A DNA stretch of 34,384 nt, from assembly GCA_030524345.1 (NCBI GenBank), contig JAUNGP010000016.1:1-34384 (forward strand). Direction: 5' to 3'. Of this stretch, positions 60 to 24,870 are shown in pieces. A program made the position numbers and the translations under genes. The notes below the pieces were generated by a model, which made no database searches, was not told the origin of the DNA, and worked only from the letters and a program-made list of their open reading frames with translations. Every line of letters starts with the position of its first letter. The first letter of the stretch is position 1. This DNA comes from Clostridia bacterium (GTDB lineage: Bacteria; Bacillota; Clostridia; TANB77; CAG-465).

Positions 60-136
60 TGGCGACCTGAATGGGGCTCGAACCCACGACCTCTAGCGTG
101 ACAGGCTAGCGTTCTAACCAACTGAACTACCAGGCC
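60..136 (-). tRNA. tRNA-Asp (GTC)
   Basis: A complete cloverleaf on the minus strand. Acceptor GGCCTGG pairs with TCAGGTC (two G-T wobbles), the anticodon stem is CTAGC/GCTAG, the loop CTGTCAC gives anticodon GTC, and the T-stem is GTGGG/CCCAT with one wobble. Discriminator G is followed by a genome-encoded CCA (60-62). It lies 11 nt downstream of tRNA-Val in the same transcript. Confidence 0.96.
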
Positions 137-147
137 AAAAAAATAAG

Positions 148-223
148 TGGTGGGCACTACAGGGCTCGAACCTGTGACCCCCTGCTTGTAAGGCAGATGC
201 TCTCCCAACTGAGCTAAGCGCCC
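148..223 (-). tRNA. tRNA-Val (TAC)
   Basis: A complete minus-strand cloverleaf. Acceptor GGGCGCT pairs with AGTGCCC, the anticodon loop CTTACAA gives anticodon TAC (UAC, Val), the T-stem is ACAGG/CCTGT, and CCA is encoded (148-150). It is the first gene of the Val-Asp-Phe cluster and sits just downstream of a consensus promoter at 245-273. Confidence 0.96.
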
Positions 224-1772: not shown

Positions 1773-4625
1773 TTAACCTAAAACAATGTTTACTATTTTA
1801 GATTTAATCACAATCACTTTCTTAATTTCCTTGCCATTTAAGTATTGTGATAAATTACTACTTTCTAATACAATCTTTTCTGTAGTTTTTTCATCTGCAT
1901 CAGCAGGTACATTAATTCTAAATTTAACAGACCCGTTAATTTGCACCGGTATTTCGATACTTTCTGTTACGATCTTTGTTTCATCATAAGTTGGCCACTT
2001 GCTTTCAAATACATAACCTTCAAATCCTAATCTTTGCCATAATTCTTCCGTAACATGAGGTGCAACAGGATTTAATATTTGAAGTAAAGGTTTTATATAT
2101 TTTTTACTTACTTTTTCTTGTTTGTATAATAAATTTACATATGACATCATTGCAGCAATTGCAGTGTTATACTTCATATCTTCAAAATCTTCTGTTACTT
2201 TTTTAATTGTCTTATTAATTTCTCTTTCTAATTCCTTTGATTCTATATCTTCATCTGTTGCCATATTTTCAAGTCTCATAATCCTATCAAGGAATTTCTT
2301 AGCTCCCTTAACACCATTTTCAGACCAAGGCGCTGGAAGTGAGTATTCTCCAATAAACAATATATAGGTCCTTAAAGTATCCGCGCCAAAAGTTTTTACA
2401 ATTTCATCAGGATTGATAACATTTCCTTTTGATTTTGACATCTTTTCACCATCTGGTCCTAAAATAAGGCCTTGAGCAGTTCTTTTCATATATGGTTCTT
2501 TAGTTGGTACAACACCAATATCATATAGGAATCTATGCCAAAATCTAGAATAGATTAAATGACGAGTAACATGTTCCATACCACCATTATACCAATCGAC
2601 ACATTTCCAATAATCAAGATTTTCTTTACTTGCCAAAGCATCATTATTTCTAGGATCCATATATCTTAAGAAATACCAGCTAGAGCCTGCCCATTGAGGC
2701 ATTGTATCTGTTTCTCTTTTAGCAGGTCCACCACAATGAGGACAAGTTGTATTTACCCACGAATCTACTTTAGCAAGTGGAGACTCTCCATCCTCTCCTG
2801 GAACAAAATTGTCGACTTCTGGTAAAGTTAAAGGTAAGTCTTTTTCAGATAATGGAACAAGACCACATCTCTCACATTTTACAATTGGAACTGGTTCTCC
2901 CCAATATCTCTGTCTTGCAAAAGCCCAATCTTTCATATGATAGTTTTTCTTTCTCCTACCAATTCTTTTTTCTTCAATATATTTAATTGCTTCCTCTTTT
3001 GCCTCTTTCACATCTAATCCATTTAAGAAACCAGAGTTTACCATTTTTCCATTATTAATATCAATATATGCTCTCTCATTAACAAACATATCAGTAACGA
3101 AATTTTGACTATCCACATTAATATTACTAGTTAAATTTTCTTTACTAACCCACCTGCAAGTATGCATTGCAAGCTCTTCTTGGCTCACATCCACTTTACA
3201 TTCATCTGCAAGTTCTATATAAACAGGATACTGAATAATATCTCTATTCACATTTTTGTGAGCAGCGTAAAAACTATCATAAGATATAGAGCTTAATAAG
3301 TAAGCATTTTTTACATTAAAATAGCCAGTTTCCTCTTTCATCTCACGAATTGCAGCATCAATTTCTGTTTCGCCTTCTTCAATTCCACCCATGACAAAAG
3401 ATTTCCATCCATATTTTGAGTTATAATCTTGAATTAAATATTTATCTTCTGTTGGATGCTTAATAATTGCAAGAGCAACACGTCTTTTAGTATTTTCTAC
3501 TCCCTCTCTTTTTGCATCTTCACCAGTTGCAATAAAATGTGGTGCAACGACTTGTATCATATTGATACCAAACTTTTTAGCAAATTCAAAATCTCTTGTA
3601 TCATGAGCAGGAACAGCCATAATAGCACCTGTACCATATCCCATCATTACATAGTCAGTAACCCATAATGGTACAACATTTCCAGTAACGGGATTGACTA
3701 CTTTTAATCCATAGACTTCAACACCTGTTTTTTCCTTAGCAAGTTCAATTCTTTCAAATTCTGATTTTTTATTTGCTTTTTTCTTATATTCAACAATTTC
3801 ATCATAATTTTGGATTCTATCTTTATATTTTTCAAGTAAAGGATGTTCAGGTGCAATTGCCATATAAGTTACACCAAATATTGTATCTGGTCTTGTTGTA
3901 TAGACAGTCAGTTTATCATCTGTACCATCTACTAAAAAGTCAATTTCTGCTCCATATGATCTTCCAATCCAGTTTTCTTGTTCAAGTCTTACCCTAGGAT
4001 GAAATTTGACTTCATCTAGTCCATCAAGTAGTTTATCTGCATAATCTGTAATTTTAAGCATCCAAACTTCTTTTTCCTTTTGAACGATTTCACTATCACA
4101 TCTATCACATTTTCCACCTTGAGACTCTTCATTGGCAAGAATAACTCTACATTTTGGACAGTAATTTACATATGTTTTATCCTTATAAGCTAGTCCATGC
4201 TCAAATAACTTTAAAAATATCCATTGTGTCCATTTATAATAATTAGGATCTGTTGTATCTATTACTCTATCCCAATCAAAAGAAAAACCAACAGATTTTA
4301 ATTGCTTTGTAAAAGTAGCAATATTATCATCAGTTACTTTTCTTGGATGAATACCCGTCTTAATAGCATAATTTTCAGTAGGAAGTCCAAAAGCATCAAA
4401 TCCTATTGGAAATAATACATTATAATCTTCCATTCTTCTTTTTCTAGATATTACATCCATTCCCATATATGCTCTTATATGACCAACATGCATACCTGCG
4501 CCTGATGGATATGGAAATTCGATTAGTGAATAAAATTTTTTCTTTGACTTATCTTCACTTGCATGAAAACATTTCTTTTCTTCCCATATTTTTTGCCATT
4601 TACCATCTATACTTTTATCATACAT
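1773..4625 (-). CDS. leuS: Leucyl-tRNA synthetase with an inserted Nudix domain
   Basis: Class I aminoacyl-tRNA synthetase that charges tRNA-Leu in the cytoplasm. Visible are HVGH (46-49), cysteine pairs of a zinc site (156/159, 173/176), editing-domain motifs TTRPDT (243-248) and AVPAHDTRDF (337-346, with D345), KMSKS (728-732) and a C-terminal tRNA-binding part. Bacterial LeuRS is usually about 800-860 aa; this one is 950. The excess is a block of roughly 150 aa (about 362-515) directly after the editing motif. It contains a perfect Nudix box at 413-435 (G-x5-E-x7-REMKEETGY). Downstream, the LeuRS sequence resumes at AYIDINNGKMVNSGF. The ATG is preceded by GGAGAG. The gene lies 15 nt after the HD-protein gene, with no room for a T-box leader. 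The LeuRS call is certain; what the Nudix part does is unknown. Confidence 0.97.
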   Translation of the reverse strand: MYDKSIDGKWQKIWEEKKCFHASEDKSKKKFYSLIEFPYPSGAGMHVGHIRAYMGMDVISRKRRMEDYNVLFPIGFDAFGLPTENYAIKTGIHPRKVTDDNIATFTKQLKSVGFSFDWDRVIDTTDPNYYKWTQWIFLKLFEHGLAYKDKTYVNYCPKCRVILANEESQGGKCDRCDSEIVQKEKEVWMLKITDYADKLLDGLDEVKFHPRVRLEQENWIGRSYGAEIDFLVDGTDDKLTVYTTRPDTIFGVTYMAIAPEHPLLEKYKDRIQNYDEIVEYKKKANKKSEFERIELAKEKTGVEVYGLKVVNPVTGNVVPLWVTDYVMMGYGTGAIMAVPAHDTRDFEFAKKFGINMIQVVAPHFIATGEDAKREGVENTKRRVALAIIKHPTEDKYLIQDYNSKYGWKSFVMGGIEEGETEIDAAIREMKEETGYFNVKNAYLLSSISYDSFYAAHKNVNRDIIQYPVYIELADECKVDVSQEELAMHTCRWVSKENLTSNINVDSQNFVTDMFVNERAYIDINNGKMVNSGFLNGLDVKEAKEEAIKYIEEKRIGRRKKNYHMKDWAFARQRYWGEPVPIVKCERCGLVPLSEKDLPLTLPEVDNFVPGEDGESPLAKVDSWVNTTCPHCGGPAKRETDTMPQWAGSSWYFLRYMDPRNNDALASKENLDYWKCVDWYNGGMEHVTRHLIYSRFWHRFLYDIGVVPTKEPYMKRTAQGLILGPDGEKMSKSKGNVINPDEIVKTFGADTLRTYILFIGEYSLPAPWSENGVKGAKKFLDRIMRLENMATDEDIESKELEREINKTIKKVTEDFEDMKYNTAIAAMMSYVNLLYKQEKVSKKYIKPLLQILNPVAPHVTEELWQRLGFEGYVFESKWPTYDETKIVTESIEIPVQINGSVKFRINVPADADEKTTEKIVLESSNLSQYLNGKEIKKVIVIKSKIVNIVLG

Positions 4626-4640
4626 AATACTTCTCTCCTT

Positions 4641-5771
4641 TTATTTATACTTTCTGTATTCTTTTTCTACAAAGTTATCTGTCATACCAGATAAGTAATC
4701 AATTATTTTTTGAAAATCAGATGTATTTTCTAAATAATCTTTTGACATATTATTTAAAAATATTCTATTGATATGATTTTCTTGGTCTTTCCTATTTAAA
4801 GCTTTTTCATAGACATCATACAATGTATATAAAATTGTTTTATACTCTTTTCTTTTATCATCATCAATTGCTTTTTTATATATATTTTCATAATTAAAAT
4901 TCTTTAAGTCAACAATTGCCTCATACATTTTGTCAGACAAACTAATATATGGCTTATGATAGCTTTCTTTTACCACATCTAGGATGATATTATTCATGAT
5001 TTGCGCATTTGAAGTTCCAAGTACTTCTTTTACATTTTGGGGCAGTGTATCTATATCAAATCCTTTTAGTCTTTTACTATCTTCTATATCTTTTCCAAGA
5101 TATCCAATAATGTCAGAAAGTCTTACAACACAACCTTCCATTGTCATAGGTCTAATATTTTTTATTTTACTATTATCTTGAAGACACATATGATATTCTT
5201 CTAAAAATTTTTCACATGTTTTAGGCATTGGTCTATATTCTGCCTTTACCATCTCACCATTATGTGTCATGATACCATCCAAAACTTGTAGTGTTAAATT
5301 ACAGCCTCTTCCGTTATTTTCAAGTTTTGTAAAAACCCTAACACTATTTAAATTATGTGCAAAATGAGTTCCATTTTTCTCAAAGGATAACTCATCTAAT
5401 ATATATTCGCCAACATGTCCAAATGGTGTATGACCAATGTCATGTCCTAAAGCGATTGCCTCACTTAAATCTTCATTTAATCCCAGAGCTCTAGATATCG
5501 TTCTTGCAGCACGACTAACAAATTGTACATGAGTCATCCTAGTAGAAATATTATCATTTCCAGAATCTGTATACACTTGTGTTTTATCAATATATCTAGT
5601 ATATGATAATGCATGTACTATTCTATCAGTGTCTCTTGCAAAATCTAAACGTATATCATTTTCTTTTTCTTCTTTATTCAGTCGTATAGCCTCATTTGAC
5701 TTACAAGCAAATGGACTGAATAGTTCTTCTCTTTTCATTGCCATTTCTCTTATTTCATTAAAATTTAACAT
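4641..5771 (-). CDS. dGTPase-like HD-domain phosphohydrolase
   Basis: 376 aa, similar in layout to deoxyguanosinetriphosphate triphosphohydrolase-like proteins, which hydrolyse dNTPs to the nucleoside and triphosphate. The HD signature is seen as H53 (in IVHALSYTRY), H81 (RMTHVQFVSRAARTI), H110-D111 (ALGHDIGHTPFGH) and later conserved helices with a Mn-binding Asp near 218 (RLSDIIGYL). The substrate cannot be read from sequence. GGAGGTGA lies 7 nt before the ATG. It is the second gene of the operon that starts at the promoter 6708-6736, 15 nt after the lipid kinase and 15 nt before leuS. Confidence 0.88.
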   Translation of the reverse strand: MLNFNEIREMAMKREELFSPFACKSNEAIRLNKEEKENDIRLDFARDTDRIVHALSYTRYIDKTQVYTDSGNDNISTRMTHVQFVSRAARTISRALGLNEDLSEAIALGHDIGHTPFGHVGEYILDELSFEKNGTHFAHNLNSVRVFTKLENNGRGCNLTLQVLDGIMTHNGEMVKAEYRPMPKTCEKFLEEYHMCLQDNSKIKNIRPMTMEGCVVRLSDIIGYLGKDIEDSKRLKGFDIDTLPQNVKEVLGTSNAQIMNNIILDVVKESYHKPYISLSDKMYEAIVDLKNFNYENIYKKAIDDDKRKEYKTILYTLYDVYEKALNRKDQENHINRIFLNNMSKDYLENTSDFQKIIDYLSGMTDNFVEKEYRKYK

Positions 5772-24796: not shown

Positions 24797-24870
24797 AGGG
24801 GTATAGTTCATCGGTAGAATAAGAGTCTCCAAAACTCCAGAGCTAGGTTCGATTCCTAGTACCCCTGCCA
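24797..24870 (+). tRNA. tRNA-Trp (CCA)
   Basis: Acceptor AGGGGTA pairs with TACCCCT, the D-arm is GTTC/GAAT, the anticodon loop CTCCAAA gives anticodon CCA (Trp), and the T-arm is CTAGG/CCTAG. Discriminator G is followed by encoded CCA. The first anticodon-stem pair is an A-C mismatch. It stands alone with its own promoter and terminator. Confidence 0.95.

Follow-up and report, generated by a model that had tools for sequence, protein, structure and literature searches.

A leucyl-tRNA synthetase with a Nudix hydrolase domain nested in its editing domain, found patchily in two bacterial classes

An intact Nudix domain within a complete leucyl-tRNA synthetase

We analysed a stretch of 34,384 bases from a Clostridia bacterium (assembly GCA_030524345.1, contig JAUNGP010000016.1), hereafter the window, which is one whole contig of a genome of 1.71 Mb that is split into 39 contigs and 99.85% complete. 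Its only leuS gene, an open reading frame (ORF) of 950 amino acids on the minus strand (4625..1773) with an ATG start and zero internal stops, encodes a leucyl-tRNA synthetase (LeuRS) in which an intact Nudix domain is nested within a loop of CP1, the editing domain, an architecture that we regard as practically certain. In total 19 such genes were found in 18 genomes of two classes.

The product belongs to the bacterial LeuRS family TIGR00396 (960.5 bits against a cut-off of 548.4), and Pfam recognises in it the catalytic parts, the CP1 editing domain (residues 217-363), a NUDIX match (PF00293, 381-502) and the anticodon domain (797-913). A preliminary description of this DNA had held that the catalytic and editing motifs are intact, and HIGH (as HVGH), KMSKS, TTRPDTxxGxT and VPAHDxRD are indeed all present, together with the editing-site Thr and Asp. 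The best full-length predicted structure (pLDDT 85.8) has the LeuRS fold, with Z 44.1 to 2v0c (root mean square deviation, rmsd, 5.9; 731 residues aligned) and Z 43.3 to 2bte_A (rmsd 3.7; 794 aligned). Judged from its sequence, it is the complete, bacterial-type housekeeping LeuRS of the cell, and since no other LeuRS was found in so complete a genome, it very likely charges tRNA-Leu.

In the alignment with Thermus thermophilus LeuRS (1h3n), window residues 5-360 match 8-362 and 517-725 match 374-581, and the intervening 156 residues (361-516) occupy the position of 11 residues of that enzyme. The Nudix domain stands in place of a CP1 loop of about 10-15 residues, about 15 residues past the editing-site Asp. 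The PF00293 match scores 46.6 bits (E 4.3e-12, cut-off 21.1), and the insert modelled alone (pLDDT 89.2) adopts the Nudix fold, with 2azw as the best match (Z 18.0, rmsd 2.2, 143 residues aligned), the identity to the solved Nudix proteins listed in the fold search being 15-21%. The claim that a complete Nudix domain lies nested and in frame in the editing region is thus upheld by Pfam, alignment and predicted fold. The Nudix box had been called perfect; at residues 413-435 its Gly, Glu, Arg-Glu and Glu-Glu positions are all kept and the catalytic positions are complete, but its last position is Tyr, here and in all 19 genes, whereas the consensus GX5EX7REX2EEXG[ILV], as given in the accessible text of a published review (PMC10148737), has I, L or V there. 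The GC content is even along leuS (N-terminal part 31.0%, insert 32.3%, C-terminal part 32.5%). The features of the gene are as follows, all on the minus strand.

1773..4625, minus: leuS, LeuRS with Nudix insert, 950 amino acids, stop codon included (Pfam, TIGR00396, sole LeuRS found in genome)
3978..4625, minus: N-terminal catalytic part, residues 1-216 (Pfam, 1h3n alignment)
4479..4490, minus: HIGH motif, HVGH, residues 46-49 (motif inspection)
3546..3977, minus: CP1 editing domain, first part, residues 217-360 (PF13603 at 217-363)
3867..3869, minus: editing-site Thr, T253 (in TTRPDTIFGVT)
3591..3593, minus: editing-site Asp, D345 (in VPAHDTRD)
3078..3545, minus: Nudix insert, residues 361-516 (alignments, box, predicted fold)
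3120..3485, minus: PF00293 NUDIX match, residues 381-502 (Pfam)
3321..3389, minus: Nudix box GGIEEGETEIDAAIREMKEETGY, residues 413-435 (motif)
3267..3272, minus: X-loop aromatic pair F452-Y453, +17/+18 after the box (X-loop as defined in the available text of PMC5389931)
2946..3077, minus: CP1 editing domain, second part, residues 517-560, resuming at ERAYIDINNGKMVNSG (alignment; end set by eye)
1776..2945, minus: leuS stretch beyond the second CP1 part (Pfam, 1h3n alignment)
2430..2444, minus: KMSKS motif, residues 728-732 (motif inspection)

We take T253 and D345 to be the equivalents of E. coli T252 and D345, respectively.

Patchy distribution and repeated gain, loss or exchange

Matches spanning the insert came from 9 of the 238 genomes searched in the window's order, namely two of the window's genus (G000, G222), three of the same family (G229, G233, G227) and four of another family (G351, G284, G425, G384). 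The class of genome G710 likewise had Nudix-LeuRS in 9 of 247 genomes, amounting to 10 genes since G710 has two. Among the matches listed, which were ordered by E-value so that spanning matches come first, the only carrier was the window's own genome both in the phylum sample (1/199) and in the class sample searched with the insert profile (1/291), and none of 251 Chloroflexota genomes had a spanning match. Besides the Nudix-LeuRS, no other LeuRS was found in 17 of the 18 genomes; several of the 18 are incomplete, so that a second copy could escape notice there. The exception is G710 (1.1 Mb), whose two LeuRS (L107:2843-5710 and L242:556-3366) both carry inserts of the same kind (subfamily II, below) and are 53% identical over the whole match and 72% identical in their inserts. 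A tentative twentieth case, among the matches listed of a one-pattern contig scan, is L106:1-471 (CANQPF010000011.1), a contig that opens inside a Nudix insert; its frame ends after about a dozen LeuRS-like residues, as in a broken leuS or at an assembly edge, and its genome (G711) also has a LeuRS-like frame without insert. The databases probably hold further Nudix-LeuRS, presumably including LeuRS of Patescibacteria with a similar insert.

The window's genus offers the closest comparison. Fifteen members have LeuRS halves 74-86% identical to the window's with a short loop at the insert site, and other members have a more distant LeuRS (42-49% identical per half), likewise without the insert. 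The order of an EAL/GGDEF gene, leuS and an HD-domain gene is common to Nudix-bearing G000, G222 and G229 and to Nudix-less G223, G212, G209, G203 and G206, so the module has been gained or lost in place.

The 19 inserts split into subfamily I (8 genes, including the window's) and subfamily II (11 genes). In a tree of 88 LeuRS bodies from which the insert columns had been removed (19 with insert, 69 without; L241, which has no ORF, was left out), the Nudix-bearing bodies are scattered, and a Nudix box is absent from all 69 plain LeuRS. At least nine changes of state are required, a count that does not separate gain from loss, and a single clade of Nudix-LeuRS bodies is rejected by the approximately unbiased (AU) test (p 6e-31). 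Since the bodies are not one clade while the inserts form two subfamilies, the sequences indicate that the module has been repeatedly gained, lost or exchanged at one CP1 site, and its recurrence at the same site in scattered, not closely related LeuRS suggests that it is useful there. This patchy recurrence and the two insert subfamilies go beyond what the preliminary description had described.

Divergence of the inserts does not simply follow that of the bodies. Within subfamily II, inserts are 52-78% and bodies 45-78% identical, and in windows along the alignment the identity of the insert is uncorrelated with that of the body (r about -0.2 to 0.1). Subfamily I has the opposite trend: G284 and G425 are 79% identical in body and 39% in insert, and the three subfamily I genes of family f102 have inserts 39-44% identical against bodies 78-79%. 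Vertical descent alone would require opposite rate ratios in the two subfamilies. Co-variation with the insert extends over roughly residues 340-560, which is much of CP1. In subfamily II the first CP1 part correlates with the rest of the body with r 0.26 only, as compared with 0.87 in the 69 plain LeuRS and a lowest value of 0.52 in 56 random sets of 11 plain rows. Furthermore, in a CP1 tree without insert columns 8 of the 11 subfamily II rows form one clade (support 100/98) while their bodies fall in three places, and the CP1 windows of the second G710 copy resemble other Nudix-LeuRS, most of its other windows being nearer to plain LeuRS of other groups. These sequence comparisons suggest that CP1 and Nudix can move as a unit. 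Such swapping is suggested, not proven, because the AU tests do not reject congruent placements: a one-clade constraint gave p 0.08 for the three f102 inserts and 0.07 for five f1 inserts, body clades forced on the subfamily II insert tree gave p 0.16, 0.18 and 0.18, and in the CP1 tree forcing the CP1 of G710's second copy to its body group gave p 0.135 and making body clade B1 exclusive p 0.26. Several observations also run counter to transfer of CP1 as a unit. The last 70 residues co-vary with the insert as well (r 0.44-0.68 across all pairs), in plain LeuRS too the body is followed less closely by the second CP1 part (r 0.64) and the C-terminus (r 0.66), and in the first G710 copy, G879, G872 and all of subfamily I the CP1 groups with relatives. 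Co-adaptation between CP1 and insert could give a similar pattern.

We also searched for a source of the module. No close free-standing Nudix relative turned up in the 291 class genomes, where the matches listed besides the window's gene had E 1.8e-9 or worse; three further Nudix-like frames, of 153-206 amino acids, matched in the window's own genome. None of 43 Nudix loci in viral contigs had a LeuRS motif in a frame above 200 amino acids, one whole-protein scan gave no matches, and 17 synthetase-like loci (12 of LeuRS length, 5 shorter) had no Nudix box. The insert also matched 13 phage and 3 plasmid records, and wherever the matched gene has an annotated function it is of Nudix type; a viral fold search returned generic Nudix matches. 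A viral or plasmid source was therefore found in none of the viral-contig, phage and plasmid comparisons.

Predicted activity and substrate of the module

The pattern G-x5-E-x7-R-E-x2-E-E-x-G is kept in 19 of 19 inserts, and the ratio of nonsynonymous to synonymous divergence (omega) of the insert is 0.13-0.36 in the five pairs computed, at high synonymous divergence (dS 0.46-1.34). The fear that the domain might be degenerate in relatives is thereby removed, and the module is, with high probability, a catalytically active, metal-dependent hydrolase.

With regard to its substrate, diadenosine tetraphosphate (Ap4A) is formed by synthetases out of the adenylate and broken down by Nudix enzymes, as stated in the Ap4A review (PMC10148737). 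We propose that an active hydrolase would here be tethered to an enzyme that makes leucyl-adenylate; attack of ATP or ADP on the aminoacyl-adenylate would yield diadenosine polyphosphates (ApnA; Ap4A or the triphosphate Ap3A) as the likeliest substrates, and the tethered site would remove such adenylylated by-products at source. Charging and proof-reading by LeuRS would remain unchanged, the Nudix domain serving as a second, independent clearing site.

The X-loop bears on this proposal. According to the accessible text of PMC5389931, this loop sets the substrate choice of Nudix enzymes, and a Tyr there marks ApnA hydrolases. All 19 inserts have F or Y at residue +17 after the box, compared with F, Y or W in 19 of 116 other Nudix boxes; a Tyr at +16 to +18 occurs in 17 of the 19 inserts, the window's included, against 11 of 116, and a second aromatic beside +17 in 18 of 19 against 3 of 116. 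The 116 boxes are the others met in the analysis, one of them being L106, itself probably a LeuRS insert. Among the 50 fold matches of the insert model, ApnA hydrolases (4mpo Z 15.3, 1vc8 15.2, 9cxx 15.0, 3i7u 15.0, 1ktg 14.4, 4ijx 14.3) are mixed with other Nudix types, and Nudix families beyond these matches are possible. The top PDB profile match is the Ap4A hydrolase 1f3y (E 5.8e-7, 39 of 157 profile positions), which stands narrowly above a NudB structure.

A number of points weigh against this reading. The X-loop sign is statistical, its p-values overstate the case because the 19 genes are related, and two carriers (G229, G233) lack the Tyr. Searched by itself against PDB sequences, the window insert matched one entry, which was the phosphatase NudJ and not an ApnA hydrolase. 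No named substrate class fits, since the best NCBIfam equivalogs are far below cut-off (for the window insert, RppH NF001936 33.7 bits against 118, and the dihydroneopterin triphosphate diphosphatase NudB NF006961 29.7 against 103). The main text of the Ap4A review (PMC10148737) is without 'leucyl' or 'LeuRS', and that of PMC5389931 makes no mention of 'tRNA' or 'synthetase'. Routine housekeeping fits the patchy presence in near relatives less well than a benefit under certain conditions. Replacement of the Ap4A hydrolase YqeK by Nudix-LeuRS is not supported: 6 of the 18 genomes with the insert score over the YqeK cut-off, as do 5 of 28 without it (Fisher p 0.30), and YqeK is present in the window's genome. 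The role in Ap4A removal raised in the preliminary description therefore stands in part, being compatible with the data and weakly favoured by the aromatic X-loop, while activity itself is predicted only. An ApnA-like substrate is weakly favoured on this evidence, not established, and we name an ApnA-type by-product (Ap4A/Ap3A) as the main substrate tentatively, as an assignment that may well prove wrong.

As a separate observation, in the window's genus YqeK is over cut-off in both Nudix-bearing members (G000, G222) and in 0 of the 14 Nudix-less members searched, a pattern that may be one event because the two are sisters.

Alternative explanations

The chief rival, and our second choice after clearing of Ap4A-type compounds, is detoxification of an inhibitor, in which the Nudix domain would destroy a LeuRS-directed nucleotide (a leucyl-adenylate mimic of the agrocin-84/TM84 type, or another aminoacyl-nucleotide) or would reshape CP1 against an editing-site inhibitor. 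Agrocin-84 illustrates that LeuRS can be the target of a nucleotide inhibitor and that a variant LeuRS can give immunity, the resistant second LeuRS AgnB2 being the known case (PMC5059758, available text). Patchy presence at the same locus among close relatives, the repeated gain, loss or exchange with its at least nine changes, and the uncoupled divergence of insert and body in subfamily II make up an exchanging distribution that suits resistance well. The KMSKS loop is altered to KMGKR in 4 of the 19 genes, and AgnB2 differs there too (PMC5059758, same text). On the other hand, the Nudix-LeuRS is not an added resistant copy in the 17 genomes where it is the sole LeuRS found, and no obvious inhibitor-biosynthesis or resistance cluster lies beside leuS in the loci, which were compared by eye without a systematic search; L243 does have an ABC-transporter-like ORF in the vicinity of leuS, and ORFs of this type also come after the L106 insert fragment. 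The phosphoramidate of TM84, moreover, is not a usual Nudix bond. On balance we consider a resistance function unlikely, though deserving of serious attention.

A related picture, which we likewise put forward as speculative, is that of a mobile cassette: the Nudix module, alone or with CP1, would recombine between leuS genes of unrelated lineages and supply a second hydrolytic centre that acts against one specific by-product of adenylylated type, or against a nucleotide toxin of the community that is directed at LeuRS.

Hydrolysis of noncognate leucyl-like adenylates, or a clean-up of nucleotide pools (8-oxo-dGTP or NDP-X) unrelated to LeuRS, for which the fusion would be a mere parking place, appears improbable. 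MutT1 structures do rank high in the fold search (Z 15.8) and Nudix enzymes are promiscuous, but free-standing enzymes are at hand in the three other Nudix-like frames of the window's genome, and the location appears to matter because the module is kept at one identical loop across two insert subfamilies and many LeuRS lineages. We give little credence also to a role at RNA ends, with the Nudix domain acting on an RNA 5' end or cap near CP1 in the manner of RppH or coupling nucleotide state to the editing of tRNA-Leu. CP1 receives the tRNA 3' end during editing, RppH is among the best NCBIfam matches (up to 47.9 bits, for the insert of G222) and the RppH-DapF structure 6d1q gave Z 14.2, but the NCBIfam scores are far under the RppH cut-off of 118 bits. 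That the insert is non-catalytic, as a binding or structural element or a neutral passenger, might be read from the subfamily I inserts of f102, which diverge faster than their bodies, but is most improbable given the catalytic residues kept in all 19 genes and the low omega. Although the window is a single contig from a draft assembly, an assembly chimera or annotation artefact, against which the preliminary description had cautioned, is refuted because the nested build recurs in 18 more genes, which come from 17 other species-level genomes, and GC is similar along leuS.

Relation to known systems

The window LeuRS agrees with bacterial LeuRS (TIGR00396; T. thermophilus 1h3n/2bte, E. coli 4as1) in the whole enzyme, its motifs, CP1 with Thr and Asp, and fold, and differs in having the 156-residue Nudix domain for a short CP1 loop; T. 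thermophilus LeuRS has about 50 residues before KMSKS that the window LeuRS lacks. With Nudix hydrolases of PF00293 (2azw, MutT1, the ApnA hydrolases 4mpo, 1vc8 and 3i7u) the module shares fold, box, catalytic residues and, more tentatively, the X-loop aromatic, but it is nested in a synthetase, is 15-21% identical and ends its box in Tyr. The agrocin-84 self-immunity LeuRS AgnB2 (5ah5) is likewise a variant bacterial LeuRS without the leucine-specific domain (PMC5059758, text as available), but it is a self-immunity copy encoded on a plasmid, comprises 822 residues in the crystal and has no Nudix-sized insert, whereas the window's is the only LeuRS. An isoleucyl-tRNA synthetase with an N-acetyltransferase domain (NCBIfam NF040702), likened here by name alone, also joins a class I synthetase to an unrelated enzyme domain, although both synthetase and domain are others. 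No LeuRS with a Nudix domain is described among the matches listed in the literature searched, most subscription journals lying outside its scope, and as far as could be seen from that literature the combination is uncharacterised.

Few editing synthetases have been studied as thoroughly as LeuRS, which is also a target for drugs at its CP1 site. An intact hydrolase that recurs in CP1 of the sole, presumably essential LeuRS would point to a nucleotide problem at LeuRS that is worth solving in some bacteria. Nudix-LeuRS offers a single-protein route to ask whether Ap4A-type by-products of synthetases act as a signal, serve as a target or are waste, and a single genus in which some members have the module at this locus and others lack it provides a natural experiment.

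Neighbouring genes and minor observations

An HD-domain gene lies 15 bases from leuS and was judged to be outside the feature:

4641..5771, minus: HD-domain phosphohydrolase-like gene (PF01966, PF13286; Pfam, locus comparison)

This HD/dGTPase-like neighbour had been offered as an operon clue to the function of the insert. A link was rejected, as the same gene stands beside leuS in all six Nudix-less relatives compared and the neighbour is thus unrelated to the module. It adjoins leuS with no EAL/GGDEF gene on the other side in Nudix-less G231 (L060) and in Nudix-bearing G233 and G227, and in the loci compared it was not found beside Nudix-bearing leuS outside the window's family.

A small ORF (126-167 amino acids) for an apparent membrane protein lies directly upstream of leuS in 7 of 8 subfamily II loci inspected by eye, at both leuS copies of G710 and not in L100:

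L107:2410-2895, small membrane-protein-like ORF
L242:3359-3802, small membrane-protein-like ORF
L243:6267-6767, small membrane-protein-like ORF
L245:2788-3237, small membrane-protein-like ORF
L247:2977-3414, small membrane-protein-like ORF
L249:5691-6086, small membrane-protein-like ORF
L250:6054-6431, small membrane-protein-like ORF

Similar ORFs resembling REP-type transposases, so called by eye without a family search, lie a few kb from Nudix-leuS in two genomes (L099:243-998 and L100:2848-3618). The altered motifs KMGKR for KMSKS and HAGH for HIGH occur together in L247, L248, L249 and L250 (G899, G786, G893 and G865), which form one body clade, and in each of these genomes this Nudix-LeuRS is the only LeuRS found. 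Elsewhere in the window, genes for tRNA-Asp, tRNA-Val and tRNA-Trp are located at 60-223 (minus strand) and 24797-24870 (plus strand), and an additional partial tRNA match overruns the window start.

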